The position numbers and the translations under genes were made by a program. A DNA stretch of 37,813 nt. Origin: Methanocella sp. PtaU1.Bin125. Its GTDB lineage: Archaea; Halobacteriota; Methanocellia; Methanocellales; Methanocellaceae. Below the pieces are notes generated by a model. The model was not told the DNA's origin and did no database searches. It saw only the letters and a program-made list of their open reading frames with translations. Positions 15,099 through 27,294 of the stretch are shown in pieces (positions within the stretch are counted from its first letter, which is position 1; every line of letters starts with the position of its first letter). The stretch is from positions 1 through 37,813 of the forward strand of contig MVRA01000079.1 in the NCBI GenBank assembly GCA_002067315.1, in the 5' to 3' direction.

Positions 15099-17927
15099 AT
15101 GGGTAAAAAACTGAACACGCAAAGTATAACTGTACAGCTGATAGCTCTCGGCCTGATCTTATCTATCGTGCCGATCGTAATTCTTACTTATATGAACGTA
15201 TCGTCGACCTCGCAGTCCTACGATACCATGACCGAGAAAATAAGCGTGGGCGCCGCTGCGGCAGCCAGGAACCAGTTCGATACTGCGCTGCTCAAGCAGG
15301 AAAGCTCAGTCATCGCGGTCGTCGCGGACATGAGGGTGCTCCATAGCCTGGAAAGCAGCGATAAAGCTGCCCTGAAGAGACTCGTGGACGAGTACAAGGC
15401 GAAGGACGCCAACTTTGACGTCATCACGATAAGCGATGCCAGCGGCAACGTGCTGGCCAGCAGCGCGTCCGGCGCGAACGGCGCCGGCTCTGCATCGAAG
15501 GGGATACAGGCCGCCCTTGCCGGCTCGGCCTACCTGGGCCTCGAGGTCATACCTGAAACAGCCGTAGCTGCCGACAACCTGCAGAAAGATGTCGCCGATT
15601 CCGGGACTAAGGAAGGGCTCATGATCGCCTGTGCCCGGCCCGTCCGGGATGAGGACGGTAAAGTGATCGGGGCCATCGTCGGCTCGAAGCTGCTCAACAG
15701 CGACAGCGGGATCGTCGACGATATCGCGAAGAGCACGAACACTGACGTCACAATTTTCATGGGCGACACCCGCATTACGACGACGCTGAAGAACGAGAAG
15801 GGCGACCGGAACGTGGGCACGAAGGGCAGCGCGTCCGTGGTCGAGACCGTCGTCGGCGACGGCAAGGACTACATGGGCAAGCTGACGCTTTTCGAGAAAC
15901 CGTACTTCGTGTACTACGAGCCGCTGGTATCGATCGACGGCAAGAACGTGGGCATGCTGTTCACGGGCGTGGACATTTCGGCGGAAACCGCGCAGATGAA
16001 CGGGATTATCATGCAGTCCATGATCATCGGCGTCGTGATCGCCGTCCTGGCCATCGGGGCCTCGTTGTTTGTGACGTTCCGCATCACGAAGCCGATCAAG
16101 AAGCTGGTCGCGGCTGCAAACGACGTCGCGGGAGGCAACCTGAACACGGCCATCGAGACGGGCGCGACCGGCGGCGAAGTCGGGCAGCTGACCGACGCGA
16201 TCAGGGCGATGGTCGCCAACATCAAGGACCGCATCGTATACAGCGAGTCCATCCTCAAGGGCGTCCCCGATCCGATGTTCGTCGTGGACACGGACGCGAA
16301 GATCACGTACGTCAACGAGGCCGGTGCCAGGCTATACGGCACCAGCGTCACCGAGATCATGGGCAAGAAGCTCGGCGAGTCTTCGGGCGCCCGGGGCGCG
16401 GCGGCGGACGACGCCCGCATCGTGAAGTGCCTGCAGACCGGCGATGCCGTGAGCAACTTCGAGACCAGCGTTCAGATGAAAGGCGGCAAAGAGGTCTGGG
16501 TCCGGGGTAACGTCGCCCCGATCCGGGACATCAACGGCCGGGTGACCGGCGCGATCGAGCTGATGCAGGACATCACGGAGGCCCGGAACGCCCAGCAGAA
16601 GATCGAGCAGGCGGAGAAAGACGCCCGCGAGAAAGCCCTGTTCAGCGACAGTGTCCTCAAGTCTATTACGGACGCGCACATCGTCACGGACATCAACGGC
16701 AACGTGATCTACATCAACGAGGTCGCCCTGCGGATGCTCGGCTGGAGCGAAAAGGAGGCGCTGGGGCGCTCCGTCGACGACGTGATCGGCGTCAAGAACA
16801 ACAACACACGGAAGGCGCTGACTGAGCAGCGGGACATGCATAACGTGGAAGGCCACTTCATCACCCGCAACGGCCGGGACATCCCGGTGCTGGTGAACAC
16901 CACCATGATGAAGGACGTCCACGGCAACGTCACGGGCGTCAACGCGATGTTCAAGGACATCACGAAGGAGAAAGAGGCGAAGCGGCAGCTCGCCGAGATC
17001 ACCGCCTCCGCGAACAAGATCGCCGAGCGGGTGACCGGGGCGAGCGGCAACGTGCTCGACAGCGTGCAGCAGGTAATGTCGGCGTCCAGGCAGATCAGCG
17101 AGAGCATCTCGCAGATCGCTTCCGGCAGCCAGACCCAGGCGAAGAACATCGAGAACATCAACACCCTGATGCATGACATGAGCAAGAGCATCTCCGAAGT
17201 GAACGTCGGCGCGAGGCAGACCAGCGAAGACGCCATCAAGGTCAACCTCGAGGCCCGGAAGAGCGGCGAGAACGCCCGGATAGCGATTAAGAAGATGGAC
17301 GAGCTGCACGTCGCCGTCAACGACAGCGCGAAGATCGTCGCCGACCTGGGCGAGAAGAGCAAGAAGATCGGCCAGATCGTCGACATGATCACGGCGATCG
17401 CCGGGCAGACCAACCTGCTTGCGCTGAATGCCGCTATCGAAGCGGCGAGGGCCGGCGACGCGGGCCGCGGGTTCGCGGTGGTCGCGGAAGAGGTCCGGAA
17501 GCTGGCCGAGGAATCAGCGAAAGCCGCCGAGGAGATCAACAGCCTCATCGGCGAGGTCCGGGACCAGACGGCCCGGGCGGTCGAATCCATGAGCCGGGGC
17601 ACGAAGGAAGTGGACGAGAGCAACCGGATCGTCGCCGAGTCCCTCAAGAGCCTGGAGGACATCAGCCGGATGATCGACACTACGGCCGCCAAGGCACAGG
17701 AGATTGCGGCCATGACGGAAAAGCAGGCCGCGAACACCGAACGCGTGGTCAAGGACGTGGAGGACATGGCCTCGGTCATCGAGGAAAGCGCCGCGGGCGC
17801 CGAAGAGGTGAGCGCGTCGTCCGAGGAGGCGACGGCGACCGCCGAGCAGGTGTCCGGGATGGCGTCGGAGCTGGCGAAGATCGCGGTCGAGCTGAAGACC
17901 GAGGTAGGCAAGCTCAAGGTGGAGTAA
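15099..17927 (+). CDS. Methyl-accepting chemotaxis protein, Cache-HAMP-PAS-PAS-MA
   Basis: A 942-residue transducer. Residues 10-32 form TM1; about 33-300 are an extracytoplasmic double-Cache-like sensor; 304-326 form TM2; a HAMP domain follows (about 326-378). Two PAS domains come next: one near 384-490 ([26 protein letters not shown]) and one near 517-625 ([22 protein letters not shown]). The signalling domain fills 634-940, with the conserved hairpin tip [19 protein letters not shown] near 768-786. No C-terminal pentapeptide for CheR docking. It signals through CheW/CheA; cheW follows 31 bp later, while cheA, cheY and methylation genes are not in the window. The ligand is unknown; the PAS domains may sense redox or an internal ligand. 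Confidence 0.95.
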
Positions 17928-17958
17928 TCCTCCGCCTTCCCTGTTCAGGGGGTTTGAA

Positions 17959-18426
17959 ATGGCAGACAACGTTTCGAGGGACATGCAGCTGGTGGTATTC
18001 CGGCTGGGCAACGAGGAGTACGGCGCCGACATCTCCCAGATCCGGGAGATCATCCGGGCCGGGGATATCACGAGCATCCCCCAGGCGCCGGACTACGTGC
18101 ACGGCGTGATCAACCTCCGGGGCCAGGTGACCACCGTGGTCAACCTGCGCCGGCGGCTGAGCATGCCGGATAAGGAAAAGGACAGCAACTCGCGCATCGT
18201 CATCGTCGAGGTGGACCATACCACCGTGGGCATGATGGTGGACAGCGTGACCGAGGTCAAGTACATCAGCGGCAGCCAGGTCGAGCCGTTCTCCGGCCTG
18301 CTGGCGGCCGGCCAGGAGCAGAACTACATCCTGGGCGTGTGCAAGCTCAAGGACCACCTGCTCATCCTGATCGACCTGAAGCACGTGCTGGCGGAGGTCG
18401 TCAGCAGCCCGGCCACGGCCATGTAA
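17959..18426 (+). CDS. cheW: Chemotaxis coupling protein CheW
   Basis: A 155-residue single-domain CheW, linking chemoreceptors to the CheA kinase. Family traits: LVVFRLGNEEYGADISQIREIIR at the N-terminus, the VINLRGQVTTVVNLRRRL block near residues 49-66, and VGMMVDSVTEVKYISGSQVEP, closing with LLILIDLKHVL. AGGGGG at 17946-17951 acts as ribosome site. It is co-directional and adjacent to the MCP, so the two form a dedicated pair. A palindrome with T-run follows as terminator. Confidence 0.95.
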   Translation: MADNVSRDMQLVVFRLGNEEYGADISQIREIIRAGDITSIPQAPDYVHGVINLRGQVTTVVNLRRRLSMPDKEKDSNSRIVIVEVDHTTVGMMVDSVTEVKYISGSQVEPFSGLLAAGQEQNYILGVCKLKDHLLILIDLKHVLAEVVSSPATAM

Positions 18427-19692: not shown

Positions 19693-19939
19693 GCCAAAAA
19701 AATAGTAGTTTTCCTGCCCGTAAAGATTCGGGAATATTATTTTCTCTAATATGCCGATATATCGAAAATTTTGTGACGTATAAGGAAATATTTTTTCCAA
19801 TAGCTGCGGTAACTTTGTGACAAAAATGTAATTACAATCGCCAAATTTTCTCACGATCTATACGAAAGTTTATTTAAGGTTAGCGACTGAATATATGACA
19901 TTTATCATATTAGGGCATACTGACAGTCTCGGTGAGTGT

Positions 19940-20971
19940 ATGCAGGTGGATAACGGAATAACGATATTGCGGGTAATCGAGGTTATTCTCGTATTATTAT
20001 TATCGGTCATCATTGTCCTTGTCGTCCCTAAGGTACGGGAGATCAAGAACAACGGCGTGAAAACGTCTCTGTACATTTTCCTCGGCATCGTCCTCTTCAT
20101 TCTGGTGGGCATGGGGTATAATGTCATCCAGGACATCAGCGCGTCCGGCCAGGACCCCAATATAGCGATCCTGTACCCGTACACGCAATTTTTCCCGCTG
20201 CTGGTGCTGTCCATAGCGCTGGCGGGCGTCCTGCTGGTCACCTACATGGAGGGCGAAAAGTACGGGCTCATCATGGCGGGCACCGGCTTCCTCGTGATGG
20301 CGCCGGATATCCTGAAGTACATGAGCAGCGGGCGGTTCGACCTGTTCCTGCTGGGCTGTGTGGTCTGGGCGTTGATACCGGTCGTCTGGGTCCTGCTGTT
20401 CCGGCGGATCATCTACGACGACACGACCATGAGGGAACGTATCTGGGCGGCGGTCAGCGCATCGCTCATCTCGTACCTCATCTACGTCTGCACGGCCCTG
20501 GTCGCGGTCTTCGGCGAGAGCACGAGGACGATCGGCGCCGACGTGATGGCCAGCATCACGGCGAACAGCAGCGACATGCTCCGTTTCGTCGTCATCTCGC
20601 TCTGGTTCTTCATCCTCCTCACGGTCATCGTCATCTCCCTCATGTTCGTCATCCATGACCTGGCGCTGCACACGTTCAACGTCCGGCGCGTCGTGAAGAA
20701 CCACAAGGAGATCGACTACGTGTCGGCCCATCCCGTGGAGGCGATCGTGAAGGACATCGAGCCCAGGATCGACGCATACAAGGGCCTGGTCGAGGAGATG
20801 CAGGTCTTCCACCAGTACATCGACAAAGTCGACCGGCTCCGGGCGGCGTCGACGATCGCGAGGTTCAAGCAGGAGTACCTGACGCTGGCCGCCCGGCACA
20901 CCGAGGGCTCCAAGGCGGAGGCGGAACGCCTGATCAAGGTCATCGACCAGGAATTCAAGAATAGGTATTGA
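19940..20971 (+). CDS. Seven-TM membrane protein, first gene of MoxR/VWA cassette
   Basis: About 343 residues with seven hydrophobic spans at roughly 8-28, 43-62, 84-104, 107-122, 132-155, 167-190 and 213-238, and a cytosolic C-terminal tail of about 100 charged, helical residues (KNHKEIDYVSAHPVEAIVKDIEPRIDAYKGLVEEM onward). No known family or catalytic motif is seen; a 7-TM fold with a cytosolic signalling-like tail could be a membrane sensor. ATG 19940 with GGTGAG before it is preferred; ATG 19895 lies before the start point predicted by TATA-like TTTATTTAA at 19869-19877. The MoxR gene follows after 10 bp, so they are co-transcribed. Confidence 0.7.
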   Translation: MQVDNGITILRVIEVILVLLLSVIIVLVVPKVREIKNNGVKTSLYIFLGIVLFILVGMGYNVIQDISASGQDPNIAILYPYTQFFPLLVLSIALAGVLLVTYMEGEKYGLIMAGTGFLVMAPDILKYMSSGRFDLFLLGCVVWALIPVVWVLLFRRIIYDDTTMRERIWAAVSASLISYLIYVCTALVAVFGESTRTIGADVMASITANSSDMLRFVVISLWFFILLTVIVISLMFVIHDLALHTFNVRRVVKNHKEIDYVSAHPVEAIVKDIEPRIDAYKGLVEEMQVFHQYIDKVDRLRAASTIARFKQEYLTLAARHTEGSKAEAERLIKVIDQEFKNRY

Positions 20972-20981
20972 GGAAGGTTAT

Positions 20982-21860
20982 ATGGTACTGTTCAAGCGAG
21001 ACGACATCATCAAGGTCATTGAGACGTGCCAGATCAAGGGCCAGGACGAGGCGATCATCCGGGCGCTGATGTACATCAACCTCGGCTACCCGATCATGCT
21101 CTACGGGCCGCCGGGCAACGGCAAGACGACGATCGCCGAGCATATCCTGCGGTACGTCTCAAAGGGAGACAACTACTACCGCATCGAGGCGACGGAAGGC
21201 ATGACGGAGTATCACACCATCGGCGGCTTCCACCCGCTGTCCATGTCGGGCAATCCCGAGCTCTCGAAGCAGTTCATCTACAAGGACGGTGTCATCACCC
21301 GGGCCCTGCAGGAGAATAAGAACATGCTCATCGACGAGTTCACCCGTGCGCCCACCACCGCCTACTCGGGCCTGTTCATGCTGCTCTCCACGGGGCAGCT
21401 CGTCCTGGAGCACCGGGAGATGGTGCTCAAGCGCCCGAACAACTGGGTCCTCATGGTCACGGCGAACCTCGGCGACGAGGGCACGTTCAAGATGAGCGCC
21501 GCCCTGAAAAGGCGCTTCATCCCCATCTTCATCGGCTACACCAGCCGGTATACCGAGGAGAAAGTCCTCAAGGAATACACCCCGAAACTGAGCCCGGAGA
21601 TCGTGCGCGCGATCCTGGACTTCGCCGAGGAGACCCGGCGCCTGTGGCAGGAGGAAAAGTCGCTGCCCCAGGGGCTGTCCACCGACGGTGTCATCAAGAT
21701 GGCCCGGTACTGCGACATCTCCATCGACGAGGGCCTGGACGCGAAGACGGCGTTTACCGACGCGGCCATGCACCAGGGCGTGATCATCGCCGACGAGACG
21801 GACTACGTTTCGCTCCAGACCGTCAACGAGCTGGCGTTGAAGATCGGCAGCCGGTTGTGA
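20982..21860 (+). CDS. MoxR-type AAA+ ATPase
   Basis: A 292-residue AAA+ ATPase of the MoxR/CbbQ/NorQ/GvpN group, which remodel partner complexes together with VWA proteins. Walker A GPPGNGKT is at residues 42-49, Walker B MLIDEF at about 115-120, sensor 1 in VTAN near 158-161, and the arginine-finger segment ALKRRF near 175-180. RALMYINLGYPIMLYGPPG resembles GvpN in the lead-in, but no gas-vesicle gene is nearby. The C-terminal lid (about 195-292) is helical. It lies 10 bp after the 7-TM gene and 28 bp before the VWA gene, so the three form an operon. The remodelled target is unknown. Confidence 0.9.
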   Translation: MVLFKRDDIIKVIETCQIKGQDEAIIRALMYINLGYPIMLYGPPGNGKTTIAEHILRYVSKGDNYYRIEATEGMTEYHTIGGFHPLSMSGNPELSKQFIYKDGVITRALQENKNMLIDEFTRAPTTAYSGLFMLLSTGQLVLEHREMVLKRPNNWVLMVTANLGDEGTFKMSAALKRRFIPIFIGYTSRYTEEKVLKEYTPKLSPEIVRAILDFAEETRRLWQEEKSLPQGLSTDGVIKMARYCDISIDEGLDAKTAFTDAAMHQGVIIADETDYVSLQTVNELALKIGSRL

Positions 21861-21888
21861 AGCCTCCGGGGCATCGGGCGGTGTGAGT

Positions 21889-22797
21889 ATGGCGATATTC
21901 GCGGACGAGAACAGGGTACGGGAAGCGTGCGCCAAATGCATGGTCAATCCGGCCAGCGTGCACGCCTACGACGACCTGCTCACCGGCTGCCGGTCCATCG
22001 GCCGCAATTTTTTGAGGATCTACAACATCGTGCCCCCGACCATGACGCACATGGTCTACAACTCGTACCAGGGCATCGGCATTATCAACTACAACAAGTC
22101 GATCGCGGAATTCTGTAACAAGGGCAAGAGCCTGGAAGGGATGATCGCGCGCGAGCGCCGGCGGGACATCAAGAAGATCCGCTTCGCGGTCGTGTACGAC
22201 GACTCCAACTCGATGACCTCCTGGTGGCGCAACCAGACCATGTCCGAGACGATCAACGAGGCCGACTCGCCCCAGACGTACGCCAAGGTCGCCTGTATCT
22301 CCCTCATGGAAGGGCTCGGGAGAGACACCGAGATCACCCTGTGGAAATTCGGTACGGAGGCGCGGGGCCCGTACAACCTGACGACCAACATGTACCGGGA
22401 GCTGATCGCGAGCAACGGCTCCGGCGGCTCGCGCCTCGACCTCGCGCTGCAGTCGATGCTCGACAACGGGTGGGACAAGCGCAGCGGCGCGAAGATCGCG
22501 ATCATCATCACCGACGGCATCCCCGAGCACGGCCGCAGCATCTACGCGGAGGACGTCATCGCCACGGTCAACACGCTGGACATGCTCAAGCAGCTGGTCC
22601 GGCATAAGGTCCACGTGCTGTACCTGCAGCTGACCACGGACGAGTCGCGGAAGTACAGGAAGATCGGCGGCTACACGATGGTCGAGTTCGGCGAAGAGGT
22701 GCAGCGCCTCGGGTGCATCTACATGAGCGTCAAGACCAAGGACAAGATCGAGGCCTCCATGTACAAGGGCCTCAACTCGGTCATGAGACGCATTTGA
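21889..22797 (+). CDS. VWA-domain partner of the MoxR ATPase
   Basis: About 302 residues. The N-terminal 95 residues are helical without a recognised fold; the rest is a von Willebrand A domain with a complete-looking MIDAS: DDSNS (D-x-S-x-S) near residue 104, the GGSRLDLAL segment near 184-192 (Ser in place of the usual Thr), and IIITDG near 205. There is no signal peptide or membrane span, so it is cytosolic, as in the NorD/CbbO-type partners of MoxR ATPases. GTG 21883 is an alternative start. It is third in the 7-TM - MoxR - VWA operon and probably adapts the ATPase to its substrate. Confidence 0.85.
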   Translation: MAIFADENRVREACAKCMVNPASVHAYDDLLTGCRSIGRNFLRIYNIVPPTMTHMVYNSYQGIGIINYNKSIAEFCNKGKSLEGMIARERRRDIKKIRFAVVYDDSNSMTSWWRNQTMSETINEADSPQTYAKVACISLMEGLGRDTEITLWKFGTEARGPYNLTTNMYRELIASNGSGGSRLDLALQSMLDNGWDKRSGAKIAIIITDGIPEHGRSIYAEDVIATVNTLDMLKQLVRHKVHVLYLQLTTDESRKYRKIGGYTMVEFGEEVQRLGCIYMSVKTKDKIEASMYKGLNSVMRRI

Positions 22798-22851: not shown

Positions 22852-22942
22852 GGGCGCAGTGCCGGGCGCGTCTAAGCCGCCCGCGCCGGCCGCATTTCTT
22901 CGTGGCATAGCTATAAGCCGTTGTCGCCGTAATATCTCTACG

Positions 22943-24325
22943 GTGATTTTTCTGATACGCGCGGTCAGCGACGCACTGGACGGACGGGCCGACTACTACG
23001 ATGTGCGCATCCTGCACGTCACGACGACGAGCATCGAGATGAAGAACGGCGGAGTGACGAGGGCCGTCGCCGGGACCGAGTCGGGGGCCTGCGTCCGGGT
23101 GCTGTTCCGCGGCGCCTGGGGATTTGCGAGCGCTCCCGAATCGGGGAAGGCGGCGCTCGGGGAAGCGGCCGACCGCGCGGCACGGATCGCGAAGGGCATC
23201 AGCGAGACCGTGGGGGAGAAGTCGGAACTGGCGGACGTGGAGCCCGCCGTCGACGACGTGACCGTGCCCATGAAGAAAAATTTTATGGACGTGCCGATCG
23301 GCGAAAAGGTCGACCTGATCAGGGCCGCGCACGACATGATCAAAAAGTACGAGTTCGTCACGAACGATCTGATCACCTATAAGGATACGTATACGGTCGG
23401 GGAGCTTTACTCTTCCGAGGGCGCATCCGTCATTACCCGTATGCCGCGGGTGTTCTGGCAGCTCGAGCTGGCCGGGCGCAAGGACGGCCAGGCGCAGTCG
23501 GTCCGCCGGCGGATCGGCCGGACCTCCGGCCTGGAGGCGCTGGATGACGACGCGCCGCTAAAGATGGCGGACAGCGCTGTCGCTTCGCTCATCGCCCTCC
23601 TGAACGGCAAGTCGCCGCCTTCCGGGCCGATGCCCGTGATCGCGGACCCTGACCTCGCCGGCGTCTTCGCCCACGAGGCGGTCGGCCATGCGGCGGAGGC
23701 CGACCTGGTCGCGACCGGCAACTCCTGCTTCGCGGGCCGGATCGGCGAGCAGATCGGCAGCGACATGGTCACCATCCGGGACGACGCCACCCTGCCGGGG
23801 ATGAACGGCAGCATGGTCTACGACGACGAGGGCGTGAAGGCGGGCAACAAGGTGCTCATCCGGAACGGGATACTCAACGACTTCATCCAGAGCCGCGAGA
23901 CCGCGGCGAAGCTCGGCATGGCCCCCAACGGCGGGGCGAGGGCCGAGTCCTATCACGGGCGCCCGCTGGTGCGCATGAGCAACACGCTCTTCGAGGCGGG
24001 TGACCGCGACTTCAAGGAGATGATCGAGGGCGTCAGGCTCGGCGTGTACGCGAAGGGCACCCGCGGCGGGCAGGTGAATACTGCGCAGGGCTTTTTCCAG
24101 TTCAACGCGCAGGAGTCCTACCTGATCGAGAACGGCGAGATCACGAAGCCGCTGCGCGACGTCTCGCTCTCCGGGCGGACGCTGGACATCCTGAAGCTGA
24201 TCGACGCCGTGGGAGCGGACGCGGACACGGCCGGCGTGGGCATTTGCGGCAAGGGCCAGCAGGTGCCCGTGGGCCAGGGGGGCCCGCACATACGCATATC
24301 CCGGTGCGTCGTGGGAGGACGATAA
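22943..24325 (+). CDS. tldD: TldD metalloprotease subunit
   Basis: About 460 residues of the TldD family. The zinc motif HEAVGH (HExxxH) is at about residues 244-249, preceded by PDLAGVFAHE. Other family blocks are MVTIRDDATLPGMNGSMVYDDEGV, NGILNDFIQSRETAAKLGM and the C-terminal GQQVPVGQGGPHIRI. TldD and TldE form a heteromeric protease; in bacteria it matures microcin B17 and degrades the CcdA antitoxin; substrates in archaea are unknown. GTG 22943 (VIFLIRAVSDAL) is the likely start; the longer frame upstream runs through the GC hairpin. tldE begins 1 bp after its stop codon. Confidence 0.95.
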   Translation: MIFLIRAVSDALDGRADYYDVRILHVTTTSIEMKNGGVTRAVAGTESGACVRVLFRGAWGFASAPESGKAALGEAADRAARIAKGISETVGEKSELADVEPAVDDVTVPMKKNFMDVPIGEKVDLIRAAHDMIKKYEFVTNDLITYKDTYTVGELYSSEGASVITRMPRVFWQLELAGRKDGQAQSVRRRIGRTSGLEALDDDAPLKMADSAVASLIALLNGKSPPSGPMPVIADPDLAGVFAHEAVGHAAEADLVATGNSCFAGRIGEQIGSDMVTIRDDATLPGMNGSMVYDDEGVKAGNKVLIRNGILNDFIQSRETAAKLGMAPNGGARAESYHGRPLVRMSNTLFEAGDRDFKEMIEGVRLGVYAKGTRGGQVNTAQGFFQFNAQESYLIENGEITKPLRDVSLSGRTLDILKLIDAVGADADTAGVGICGKGQQVPVGQGGPHIRISRCVVGGR

Positions 24326-24326
24326 T

Positions 24327-25688
24327 ATGAAGGAAGAGCTATTGCGCGTGGCCGCCCGCGTGGTGGACACGGCGGCATCGATGGACATCTGCTGCGAGGC
24401 CTTCGTCCAGAAGAAGCGTCACACTTCGATCATCATCGAGTCCGGCAAGGTCACCTTCGGTTCCATGGACGGCGACTACGGCATCGGCATCCGGGTGATC
24501 AACGGCCGCAACACCGGCTACGCGTACTGCGACGAGCGTTCGATCGAGTTCGGGCTGAAGCAGGCGCTTTCCGTGGCCCGGCTCAGCGCCCCGGGCTGCT
24601 ACGGGTTCCAGGACGACCGGAACTACGCAGGCACCCGGTCGATCTACGACAACAGGGTCGCGACCCTGGTCACGGAAGACGGCATAGACCTGGCCCGGGA
24701 CATCATCGAGGGCGCGTGCTACGACCCGCGGGTCACGCCGTCCCGCGGCGGCCTGTCGTTCGGGACGCTGGCCTATGCGGTGGCCAACAGCAACGGCGTC
24801 TCCGTCTATGACGAGGGCACGTTCCTCAGCGGGTCGGTCATGACAGTGCTCAAAGAAGACGGCGTCATGGTGAACGGCGACGACTCGCAGGTGTCGCGCA
24901 GCCGGGACTTCAGCTTCGAGGAGATCGGCCGGAAGGCCACGGAGAAGGCGATCGGGCAGCTCGGGCAGCAGGGCATCGAGACGGCGACGATGGACGTCAT
25001 CCTGCGGCCCGACGCGGCTTTCGACATCCTCTCGAACACCGTCCTGCCGTCCTTAAACGGCGACGCCGTCCGTAAGGGCGATTCGGTGTACGTGGATAAA
25101 ATGGGCAAGCCCGTGGCGGCCGGCGGCATCACCATCGTGGACGACGCCCGGCACCCGAAAGGCCTGAACACGTTCGCCACCGACGAAGAGGGCTATCCCA
25201 GCCGACGCACAGTGCTGGCCGACAACGGCGTCCTGACCGGGCTGCTCTACGACACGTATGCGGCCATCGAGGCCGGCGCGAAGCCGACCGGCAACGCCAT
25301 GCACGGGGATCGCATGGAAACCGGTACCACCTACAAGGTGTCGCCCTCGACCTGCGCCCGTAACTTCATCCTCGAGGGTGAGACGATGCCGGAAGAGGAG
25401 ATGATCCGCGGCGTGAGGAACGGCATCCTCGTCGACAACGTGCTCGGGGCCCACACCGCCAACAAAATTAGCGGCGACTTCTCCGTGGCCATCTATGCCG
25501 GCCACGCGATCCGGGATGGCGAGATCGCCTTCCCGCTCAAGGGCGGCATGATCGGCGGCAACATGCCCGCCATGCTCCTGCAGGCGGCCCTTGCGGACGA
25601 CTACCGGCTGGTCGAGTCCGGGTTTTCCCCGGCTTCCGGCTACATCCCCAGCATCAAGTTCTCCGGTGTGCGGGTCTCAGGTGGATGA
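24327..25688 (+). CDS. tldE: TldE/PmbA protease partner
   Basis: A 453-residue PmbA/TldE-family protein, the non-zinc partner of TldD. It has the paralogous N-terminal half (IIIESGKVTFGSMDGDYGIGIRVINGRNTGYAY), the central DVILRPDAAFDILSNTVLPSLNGDAV, and GLLYDTYAAIEAGAKPTGNAMHG, but no HExxxH, as expected for this subunit. Its ribosome site GGAGG lies inside the end of tldD and the gap is one base, so translation is likely coupled. The pair is complete, suggesting an active peptidase. No small precursor peptide gene was recognised beside it. Confidence 0.95.
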   Translation: MKEELLRVAARVVDTAASMDICCEAFVQKKRHTSIIIESGKVTFGSMDGDYGIGIRVINGRNTGYAYCDERSIEFGLKQALSVARLSAPGCYGFQDDRNYAGTRSIYDNRVATLVTEDGIDLARDIIEGACYDPRVTPSRGGLSFGTLAYAVANSNGVSVYDEGTFLSGSVMTVLKEDGVMVNGDDSQVSRSRDFSFEEIGRKATEKAIGQLGQQGIETATMDVILRPDAAFDILSNTVLPSLNGDAVRKGDSVYVDKMGKPVAAGGITIVDDARHPKGLNTFATDEEGYPSRRTVLADNGVLTGLLYDTYAAIEAGAKPTGNAMHGDRMETGTTYKVSPSTCARNFILEGETMPEEEMIRGVRNGILVDNVLGAHTANKISGDFSVAIYAGHAIRDGEIAFPLKGGMIGGNMPAMLLQAALADDYRLVESGFSPASGYIPSIKFSGVRVSGG

Positions 25689-26096: not shown

Positions 26097-26109
26097 CGTG
26101 GATTGTCCG

Positions 26110-27294
26110 ATGCGCGCTCTCTATAGCCTTATTGCCGTTGCCTTTCTGGCCTTCATATTATTCAGCGCATCCGCGTCGGCCGCCGGTACCGGCGTGAAGG
26201 TGTATGCCCCGTCAGAATCTTCGGTCACGGGTGACGTCCTGCCGCTATCCTACAACGGCTCGTTTATCGTGATGAACGACGGGCTGCTGGACGCCGTCTA
26301 CGTCATCCGCGTGGCTGTCGACGACCCCCTGGTGATCACGTGGGTCAACGTCTCGCCGTCAGGCTTTACGCTGGCCCCCGGCGAGACACGTGTCGTATCG
26401 TTCAGCCTGAACGTCGGCTATGATCAGGCCATTCCCGGCACGTACCATATCAACTTCATGCCCGCCCGTCTGCCGCCGGCCGTGGAGCCTTACCTGGATA
26501 CCTTCGCCAATTATGTCTCGTACGTGGACAGCTACAACTTCACGGTCGAGATACCGGCAAGCCTGGAGGAGTCCTTTGCCTACAACGAGCAGCGGCCGGT
26601 GGTCTTCGGCGACGAAAACGGCCGGCTCAATCTCGTGCAGTACGCGCAGCCGGCGGGCAGCGGCCGTTCCCTGGTACAGATCGACCGGGCCGTCAGGGTC
26701 AACGTGCCGTCTGGCGTTCCCGTCAACCAGCCAGTCAATATCTCGCTCTCGGTGTTCGGCGACCTGAGCAGCCGGGGCATCGAGCTGATGGCCATCGACC
26801 CGGACGGCGTCTTCTATCCGGTCACCGGCGGCAATTTCACCTTCGGCCGGATGGGCCGCTGGGGCGTGATCGCCCTGATCGGCGACGAGGTCCTGCTGGG
26901 CAGGCCCGTGGACGTCACGGCGGGCGGCATCCAGCTCGTGATGCCGGGGATCGGCACCATCCTGGCCGCCATAGCGCTGATACTCCTGCTGGCCGTCGTG
27001 CCCATCTGGCTTTCCGGCCGGGGCGTGGCAAGGGAAGACCCATATGACGATATTGCCTATAAGGCCTACGTCATCAGGAAATACATTAACCAGTTCGACC
27101 GCCCCAGGCTGCTGCGGGCCGTCAGCCAGCTCCGGCAGGAATACGACGGCCTCGTCGCCAGCAAGGTCCGCGGCCGCCGCGCGAACGCGCGTGCCGCGCT
27201 GGAAGAGCTCGAGACCCTGACCCGCCTCGAGATGCTCCCCGAAGGACGCGATGTCACCGGCGAGGAACAAGAGGCCAGCGGGCCTGTATCTTGA
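26110..27294 (+). CDS. Signal-anchored exported protein with C-terminal TM and cytosolic tail
   Basis: About 394 residues. It has an N-terminal signal peptide (MRALYSLIAVAFLAFILFSASASA), a beta-rich extracellular part with Asn-linked glycosylation sites (NGSF, NVSP, NFTV, NISL) and an NEW/CARDB-like strand pattern (FTLAPGETRVVSFSLNV), then TM near 281-304 (GIGTILAAIALILLLAVVPIWL), and a basic helical tail of about 90 residues in the cytosol. The layout resembles a type I membrane protein. No named family is recognised. GTG 26098 would add four residues. It is likely transcribed alone. Confidence 0.7.
   Translation: MRALYSLIAVAFLAFILFSASASAAGTGVKVYAPSESSVTGDVLPLSYNGSFIVMNDGLLDAVYVIRVAVDDPLVITWVNVSPSGFTLAPGETRVVSFSLNVGYDQAIPGTYHINFMPARLPPAVEPYLDTFANYVSYVDSYNFTVEIPASLEESFAYNEQRPVVFGDENGRLNLVQYAQPAGSGRSLVQIDRAVRVNVPSGVPVNQPVNISLSVFGDLSSRGIELMAIDPDGVFYPVTGGNFTFGRMGRWGVIALIGDEVLLGRPVDVTAGGIQLVMPGIGTILAAIALILLLAVVPIWLSGRGVAREDPYDDIAYKAYVIRKYINQFDRPRLLRAVSQLRQEYDGLVASKVRGRRANARAALEELETLTRLEMLPEGRDVTGEEQEASGPVS

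Follow-up and report, generated by a model that had tools for sequence, protein, structure and literature searches.

A 7-TM membrane protein, a MoxR-type AAA+ ATPase and a VWA-domain protein are encoded side by side in a Methanocellaceae genome (G000, from a methane-making archaeon), and the same triad was found in 38 archaeal genomes of nine families, all of them Halobacteriota and, as relatives, not independent of one another. That the 7-TM protein and the MoxR-VWA pair make up one system is well supported. On balance, and with some reserve, we favour reading the triad as one membrane-tethered MoxR-VWA remodelling machine, in which the 7-TM protein serves as the obligate partner in the membrane and is docked by its cytosolic tail. 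An earlier note on this DNA had suggested a new type of system. The set is better regarded as a MoxR-VWA variant. Searches of Pfam, NCBIfam, PADLOC and the literature outside most subscription journals turned up no described family spanning all three genes, one of the two findings by which the note would have been refuted. New here is a Methanocellaceae block that extends the triad to a second tldD-tldE pair and to an Ig-like protein whose tail is probably homologous to that of the 7-TM protein.

Gene order and distribution

The window, by which we mean the whole stretch of 37,813 nucleotides analysed, carries the triad as a tight operon on the + strand. The 7-TM gene (19940-20971), the MoxR gene (20982-21860) and the VWA gene (21883-22797) are separated by gaps of 10 nt and 22 nt respectively, confirming the earlier proposal of three co-directional genes in one operon. 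The 7-TM reading frame opens at 19895 too, and ATG 19940 is preferred as the better start because a BRE/TATA-like motif, CGAAAGTTTATTTAAGG, lies about 70 nt upstream of it. The element that contains this motif (19860-19885, + strand, read by eye) is probably the promoter element of the operon, as a similar motif stands at a similar distance in loci L007 and L008. For the VWA protein, ATG 21889 is the more likely start than GTG 21883. Elsewhere in the window, at 15099-18426, a large chemoreceptor with Cache, HAMP and two PAS domains is followed by CheW, apart from the other chemotaxis genes.

Profiles for each of the three families were run against 394 Halobacteriota genomes. Strong matches to the 7-TM, VWA and MoxR (E<=1e-60) profiles fell in the identical 12 genomes, representing six families, and not one of the 394 had a strong match to a single triad family only; relatives that carry this MoxR-VWA pair without the 7-TM gene, the second finding that would have refuted the earlier note, were thus not found. 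The remaining matches were weak (E > 1e-7), and TM and VWA matches at that level in f3, f4 and f5 were set aside as unrelated. A second search, covering the 238 genomes in the class of G195, recovered the 7-TM gene from 29 genomes and so added 26 to the set. At every one of these 26 loci MoxR directly follows the 7-TM gene, and VWA follows MoxR at 25, the exception being a contig that stops within MoxR. The order TM-MoxR-VWA holds in 37 of the 38 triad genomes where contigs permit, with gaps mostly of 0-50 nt. In the 38th, a GC-rich metagenome genome of f32 (G238), the triad is spread over three contigs (L043, L016 and L044) with no gene lost, two of the three lying inside their contigs between unrelated flanks. 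The 7-TM gene of G516 is divided over two contigs, and one further member of f28 has a split 7-TM frame, from mutation or sequencing error. Since the same order recurs across nine families, the arrangement is not due to chance.

Carriage is nevertheless patchy, the 7-TM gene being missing from near-complete genomes of f30 and f39. When neighbouring genes were clustered, only the three triad genes recurred across families; other common neighbours were limited to one family or to a two-family pair. Mirror correlations stand at 0.96, a value to which shared descent contributes. An initial contig scan with VWA alone gave no match, a two-pattern scan of all GTDB species returned four loci, all in Halobacteriota, with patterns that miss f30 and probably others, and candidate plasmid-borne relatives were rejected as remote MoxR proteins only, below 30% identity. 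As a separate observation, a multi-pass membrane protein that by eye resembles AI-2E transporters adjoins the VWA gene at eight f39 loci and in one f3 genome (L149:2664-3797).

Anatomy of the three proteins

The 7-TM protein had been described in the earlier note as unrecognised, with a long cytosolic tail. Neither Pfam nor NCBIfam has a model that it matches above cut-off, and a fold search of the PDB and of viral structures gave no match at E<=0.001; matches to GPCR and transporter folds were dismissed as noise. An AlphaFold2 model (pLDDT 78.9, pTM 0.64) predicts seven long helices followed by a beta hairpin and a C-terminal tail of three helices, and the charge distribution places the N-terminus outside and the tail, 66 residues encoded at 20771-20968 on the + strand, inside. 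Likeness across families is 0.30 for the tail versus 0.24 for the TM part.

The MoxR protein scores above cut-off for Pfam AAA_5 (E 2.9e-20) and AAA_3. Across 34 MoxR sequences the Walker A, Walker B (LIDE) and sensor 1 motifs, KRRF and a GGFHPL.MS insert show no or almost no variation, and on a reading of the alignment the insert (GGFHPL.MS...F.YK.G) occupies the helix-2 position, between helix 2 and Walker B. Searched against PDB sequences, the MoxR profile matches midasin (MDN1) best (E 2.7e-44), with CbbQ and NorQ also among the best. It is, however, distinct from NorQ and CbbQ, having GGFHPL.MS in place of their GRXLL/IXXXXT insert motif (PMC13036017) and falling short of the CbbQ_C Pfam cut-off (19.6 vs 20.6 bits). 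It likewise scores below the curated MadB cut-off, and an identity as the gas-vesicle protein GvpN was rejected at 47.9 bits against an NCBIfam TIGR02640 cut-off of 266.8.

The VWA protein is under the cut-off for Pfam VWA (E 0.002), and its assignment comes from an AlphaFold2 model (pLDDT 86) with which Foldseek retrieved 90 PDB matches at E<=0.001, including the NorD VWA (9qh8_G) and the MDN1 MIDAS (8ql1). It has no signal sequence and is predicted to be cytosolic. Ahead of the MIDAS strand, at about residues 46-92, the model shows a finger-like element, with strands at 51-59 and 62-67, a helix at 72-77 and a strand at 85-94; model confidence is lowest here (pLDDT 52-66). The pore-entering finger of NorD occupies the corresponding position (PMC9976466, PMC13036017). 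The source protein has an intact MIDAS (DDSNS / S / D), as do all nine VWA sequences of f1, f15, f28, f32 and f34 (D.S.S-T/S-D), whereas the site is degenerate in 24 of the 24 scored sequences of f3, f30 and f39 (L139-L165, L040-L042), where the MoxR motifs are intact. It follows that in a large clade the adaptor must function without this metal site, that a NorD-type MIDAS contact is not general and that metal-dependent binding is not universal.

The Methanocellaceae block and its shared tail

All four Methanocellaceae genomes have, in order, trm1, the 7-TM, MoxR and VWA genes, tldD, tldE and a gene for an Ig-like membrane protein, and in G003 this block is kept although the gene order around it has changed. 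The trm1 gene, which has no evident relation to the triad, is kept likewise. Identity to the source-genome proteins within this family is 80-88% for MoxR, 53-65% for VWA and 43-61% for the 7-TM protein. The earlier note saw no client next to the triad, overlooking both the second tldDE pair and, further downstream, the Ig-like protein that shares the cytosolic tail.

The TldD-like metallopeptidase is encoded at 22943-24325 on the + strand (Pfam PmbA_TldD, E 8e-69); its frame opens at 22859, and GTG 22943 agrees with relatives. A TldE/PmbA-like partner follows at 24327-25688 on the same strand. As in E. coli TldD/E, the cluster TldD retains its HExxxH (here HEAVGH) and the partner is without one; unlike the E. 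coli proteins (PMC5810440), these form a second and divergent pair. Every Methanocellaceae genome carries the tldDE pair twice (four PF19289 matches), compared with at most two matches in other triad genomes, which carry one pair or, in one incomplete genome, none. Identity between the cluster pair and the other pair is about 40% for TldD and 32% for TldE, and the tree placement of the cluster pair is poorly supported. Because the pair lies near the triad in Methanocellaceae alone, and may have its own promoter, we regard it as a lineage-specific addition; the idea of TldD/E as a core part was dropped, as no other family carries tldDE near the triad. Literature searches for TldD together with MoxR, or for ANME with MoxR, returned nothing relevant.

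The Ig-like protein (26098-27294, + strand), the sixth gene when the 7-TM gene is taken as the first, is a type-I membrane protein with a signal peptide, one TM helix and no Pfam match. Its tail (27037-27219) resembles the last 66 residues of the 7-TM protein, and aligning the two with hhalign gave a probability of 95.5 and a score of 43; none of 200 column shuffles scored above 20.9, and no stretch of MoxR or VWA above 11.3. In whole-genome searches with the 7-TM tail, the Ig-like tail was the sole other match in two genomes, G000 (E 0.0013) and G002 (E 0.2). In G001 the search instead returned, at E 0.005, a helix from a protein resembling initiation factor 5B, which was rejected as a third tail and marks the noise level, so the 7-TM-tail search operates near noise. 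In the opposite direction, searching G000, G001 and G002 with the Ig-like profile recovered the tail of the 7-TM protein in all three (E 1.4e-4 to 3.6e-4), and a profile of the Ig-like tail, run over 2,250 open frames, ranked seven 7-TM proteins above all unrelated frames. From these sequence comparisons the two tails are probably homologous. An Ig-like relative in a triad genome of f28 (L108:4259-5173) is unlinked to the triad, adjoins two secreted repeat proteins and ends without a tail, and the tail on the Ig-like protein therefore looks like a Methanocellaceae feature.

A candidate machine and its alternatives

The structural template for the machine that we favour is NorQ-NorD, in which the VWA protein inserts a finger into the MoxR ring, where it meets the helix-2 insert (PMC13036017, PMC9976466), and ATP turnover turns the VWA domain, straining the client (PMC13036017). 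By this template, MoxR would form an ATP-driven ring and the VWA protein would plug it, its finger contacting the helix-2 insert. The 7-TM protein would be held through its three-helix cytosolic tail, and ATP turnover would rotate the VWA adaptor and so alter the state of the 7-TM protein (assembled, opened or released) or of a partner bound to it. We take the 7-TM protein as the strongest candidate for client or actuator, and its tail as the strongest candidate for the handle, because it is the sole partner that never leaves MoxR-VWA; the tail could alternatively serve dimerisation or sorting. In Methanocellaceae the machine would have acquired another membrane protein that bears the tail, this one with an Ig-like ectodomain, and the TldD/E proteases encoded between the triad and the Ig-like gene would perhaps trim loosened chains. 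E. coli TldD/E cleaves unfolded chains threaded through a narrow pore (PMC5810440), an activity that would suit a remodelling partner.

The likeness to NorQ-NorD and CbbQ-CbbO lies in the MoxR ATPase, presumably a ring here too, the cytosolic VWA protein and the low-confidence finger-like element before the MIDAS strand. It is limited by a VWA protein of about 300 aa that lacks the NorD N-terminal domain, by the obligate 7-TM gene and by the loss of the MIDAS in a clade. Midasin/Rea1 (MDN1), the best PDB sequence match for MoxR and among the best fold matches for VWA, differs in joining six AAA modules and a VWA domain in one huge chain for eukaryotic ribosome assembly, whereas here the genes are separate and include a membrane protein.

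Other readings of the triad deserve consideration. The 7-TM protein might be a sensor or switch for a ligand or for membrane state, its tail signalling to MoxR-VWA and from there to an unlinked cytosolic target. The N-out/C-in layout and conserved cytosolic tail would suit this, as would the lack of any other fixed gene partner, which means that the target could be anywhere. However, no known sensor domain or fold was found in the protein among Pfam models and PDB folds, it has short loops on the extracellular side, and no nameable ligand pocket emerges from its conserved TM positions; we consider this reading unlikely. Somewhat less likely still is that the triad is a cofactor insertase or enzyme-maturation chaperone of the NorQD, CbbQO or CoxDE kind, with the 7-TM protein as an anchor only and an unlinked metalloenzyme as client. 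The closest characterised structures are indeed NorQ/CbbQ and NorD, and several carriers are anaerobic archaea with abundant membrane metalloenzymes. Against it, across families no enzyme gene remains beside the triad, MoxR falls below the curated cut-offs for GvpN, MadB and CbbQ_C, and the VWA protein has no NorD-type N-terminal client domain and has lost its MIDAS in three families.

To a similarly low degree, the triad may assemble a surface structure or act in secretion, in the manner of the arCOG01314 systems that Makarova and colleagues predicted (PMC5898192). Those too are archaeal MoxR-VWA pairs with membrane and Ig-like proteins, and the tail shared by the Methanocellaceae Ig-like protein and the position of the f28 relative beside secreted repeat proteins point the same way. 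Yet those systems have a secreted VWA-Ig protein, and arCOG01314 itself is a membrane-anchored flavodoxin-like protein; neither was found in the triad block, the VWA protein being predicted cytosolic without a signal peptide, and in other families no Ig-like gene lies near the triad. A defence role of the MoxR-VWA ternary kind (PMC7159879) is very improbable. The plan of MoxR, VWA and a fixed third protein is alike, but in the conflict systems the third is a VMAP, iSTAND, FtsH or beta-propeller protein, whereas here it is a 7-TM protein; turnover of the third component, effector domains and effector swapping are all absent. PADLOC yielded weak generic AAA matches only, with none for TM or VWA; each of the four Methanocellaceae carries one copy of the triad only, at one locus, and no relatives were seen on viral contigs.

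A bolder version of the remodelling machine would make it a separate AAA+ class, in which MoxR-VWA acts solely on a dedicated 7-TM protein by way of a three-helix cytosolic tail, which can be transferred and then turns other membrane proteins into clients, with TldD/E as a linked peptidase in Methanocellaceae; we hold this to be doubtful.

MoxR-VWA pairs are widespread and clients are known for few of them. The triad provides a membrane partner that is small, fixed and never apart from the pair, and so a testable minimal system, and the recurrence of its tail on a second membrane protein makes that tail a direct candidate docking handle. The families whose VWA protein has lost its metal site, with the ATPase left intact, amount to a natural experiment. 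More broadly, the triad marks a conserved, unnamed gene set in methanogenic archaea and their relatives.
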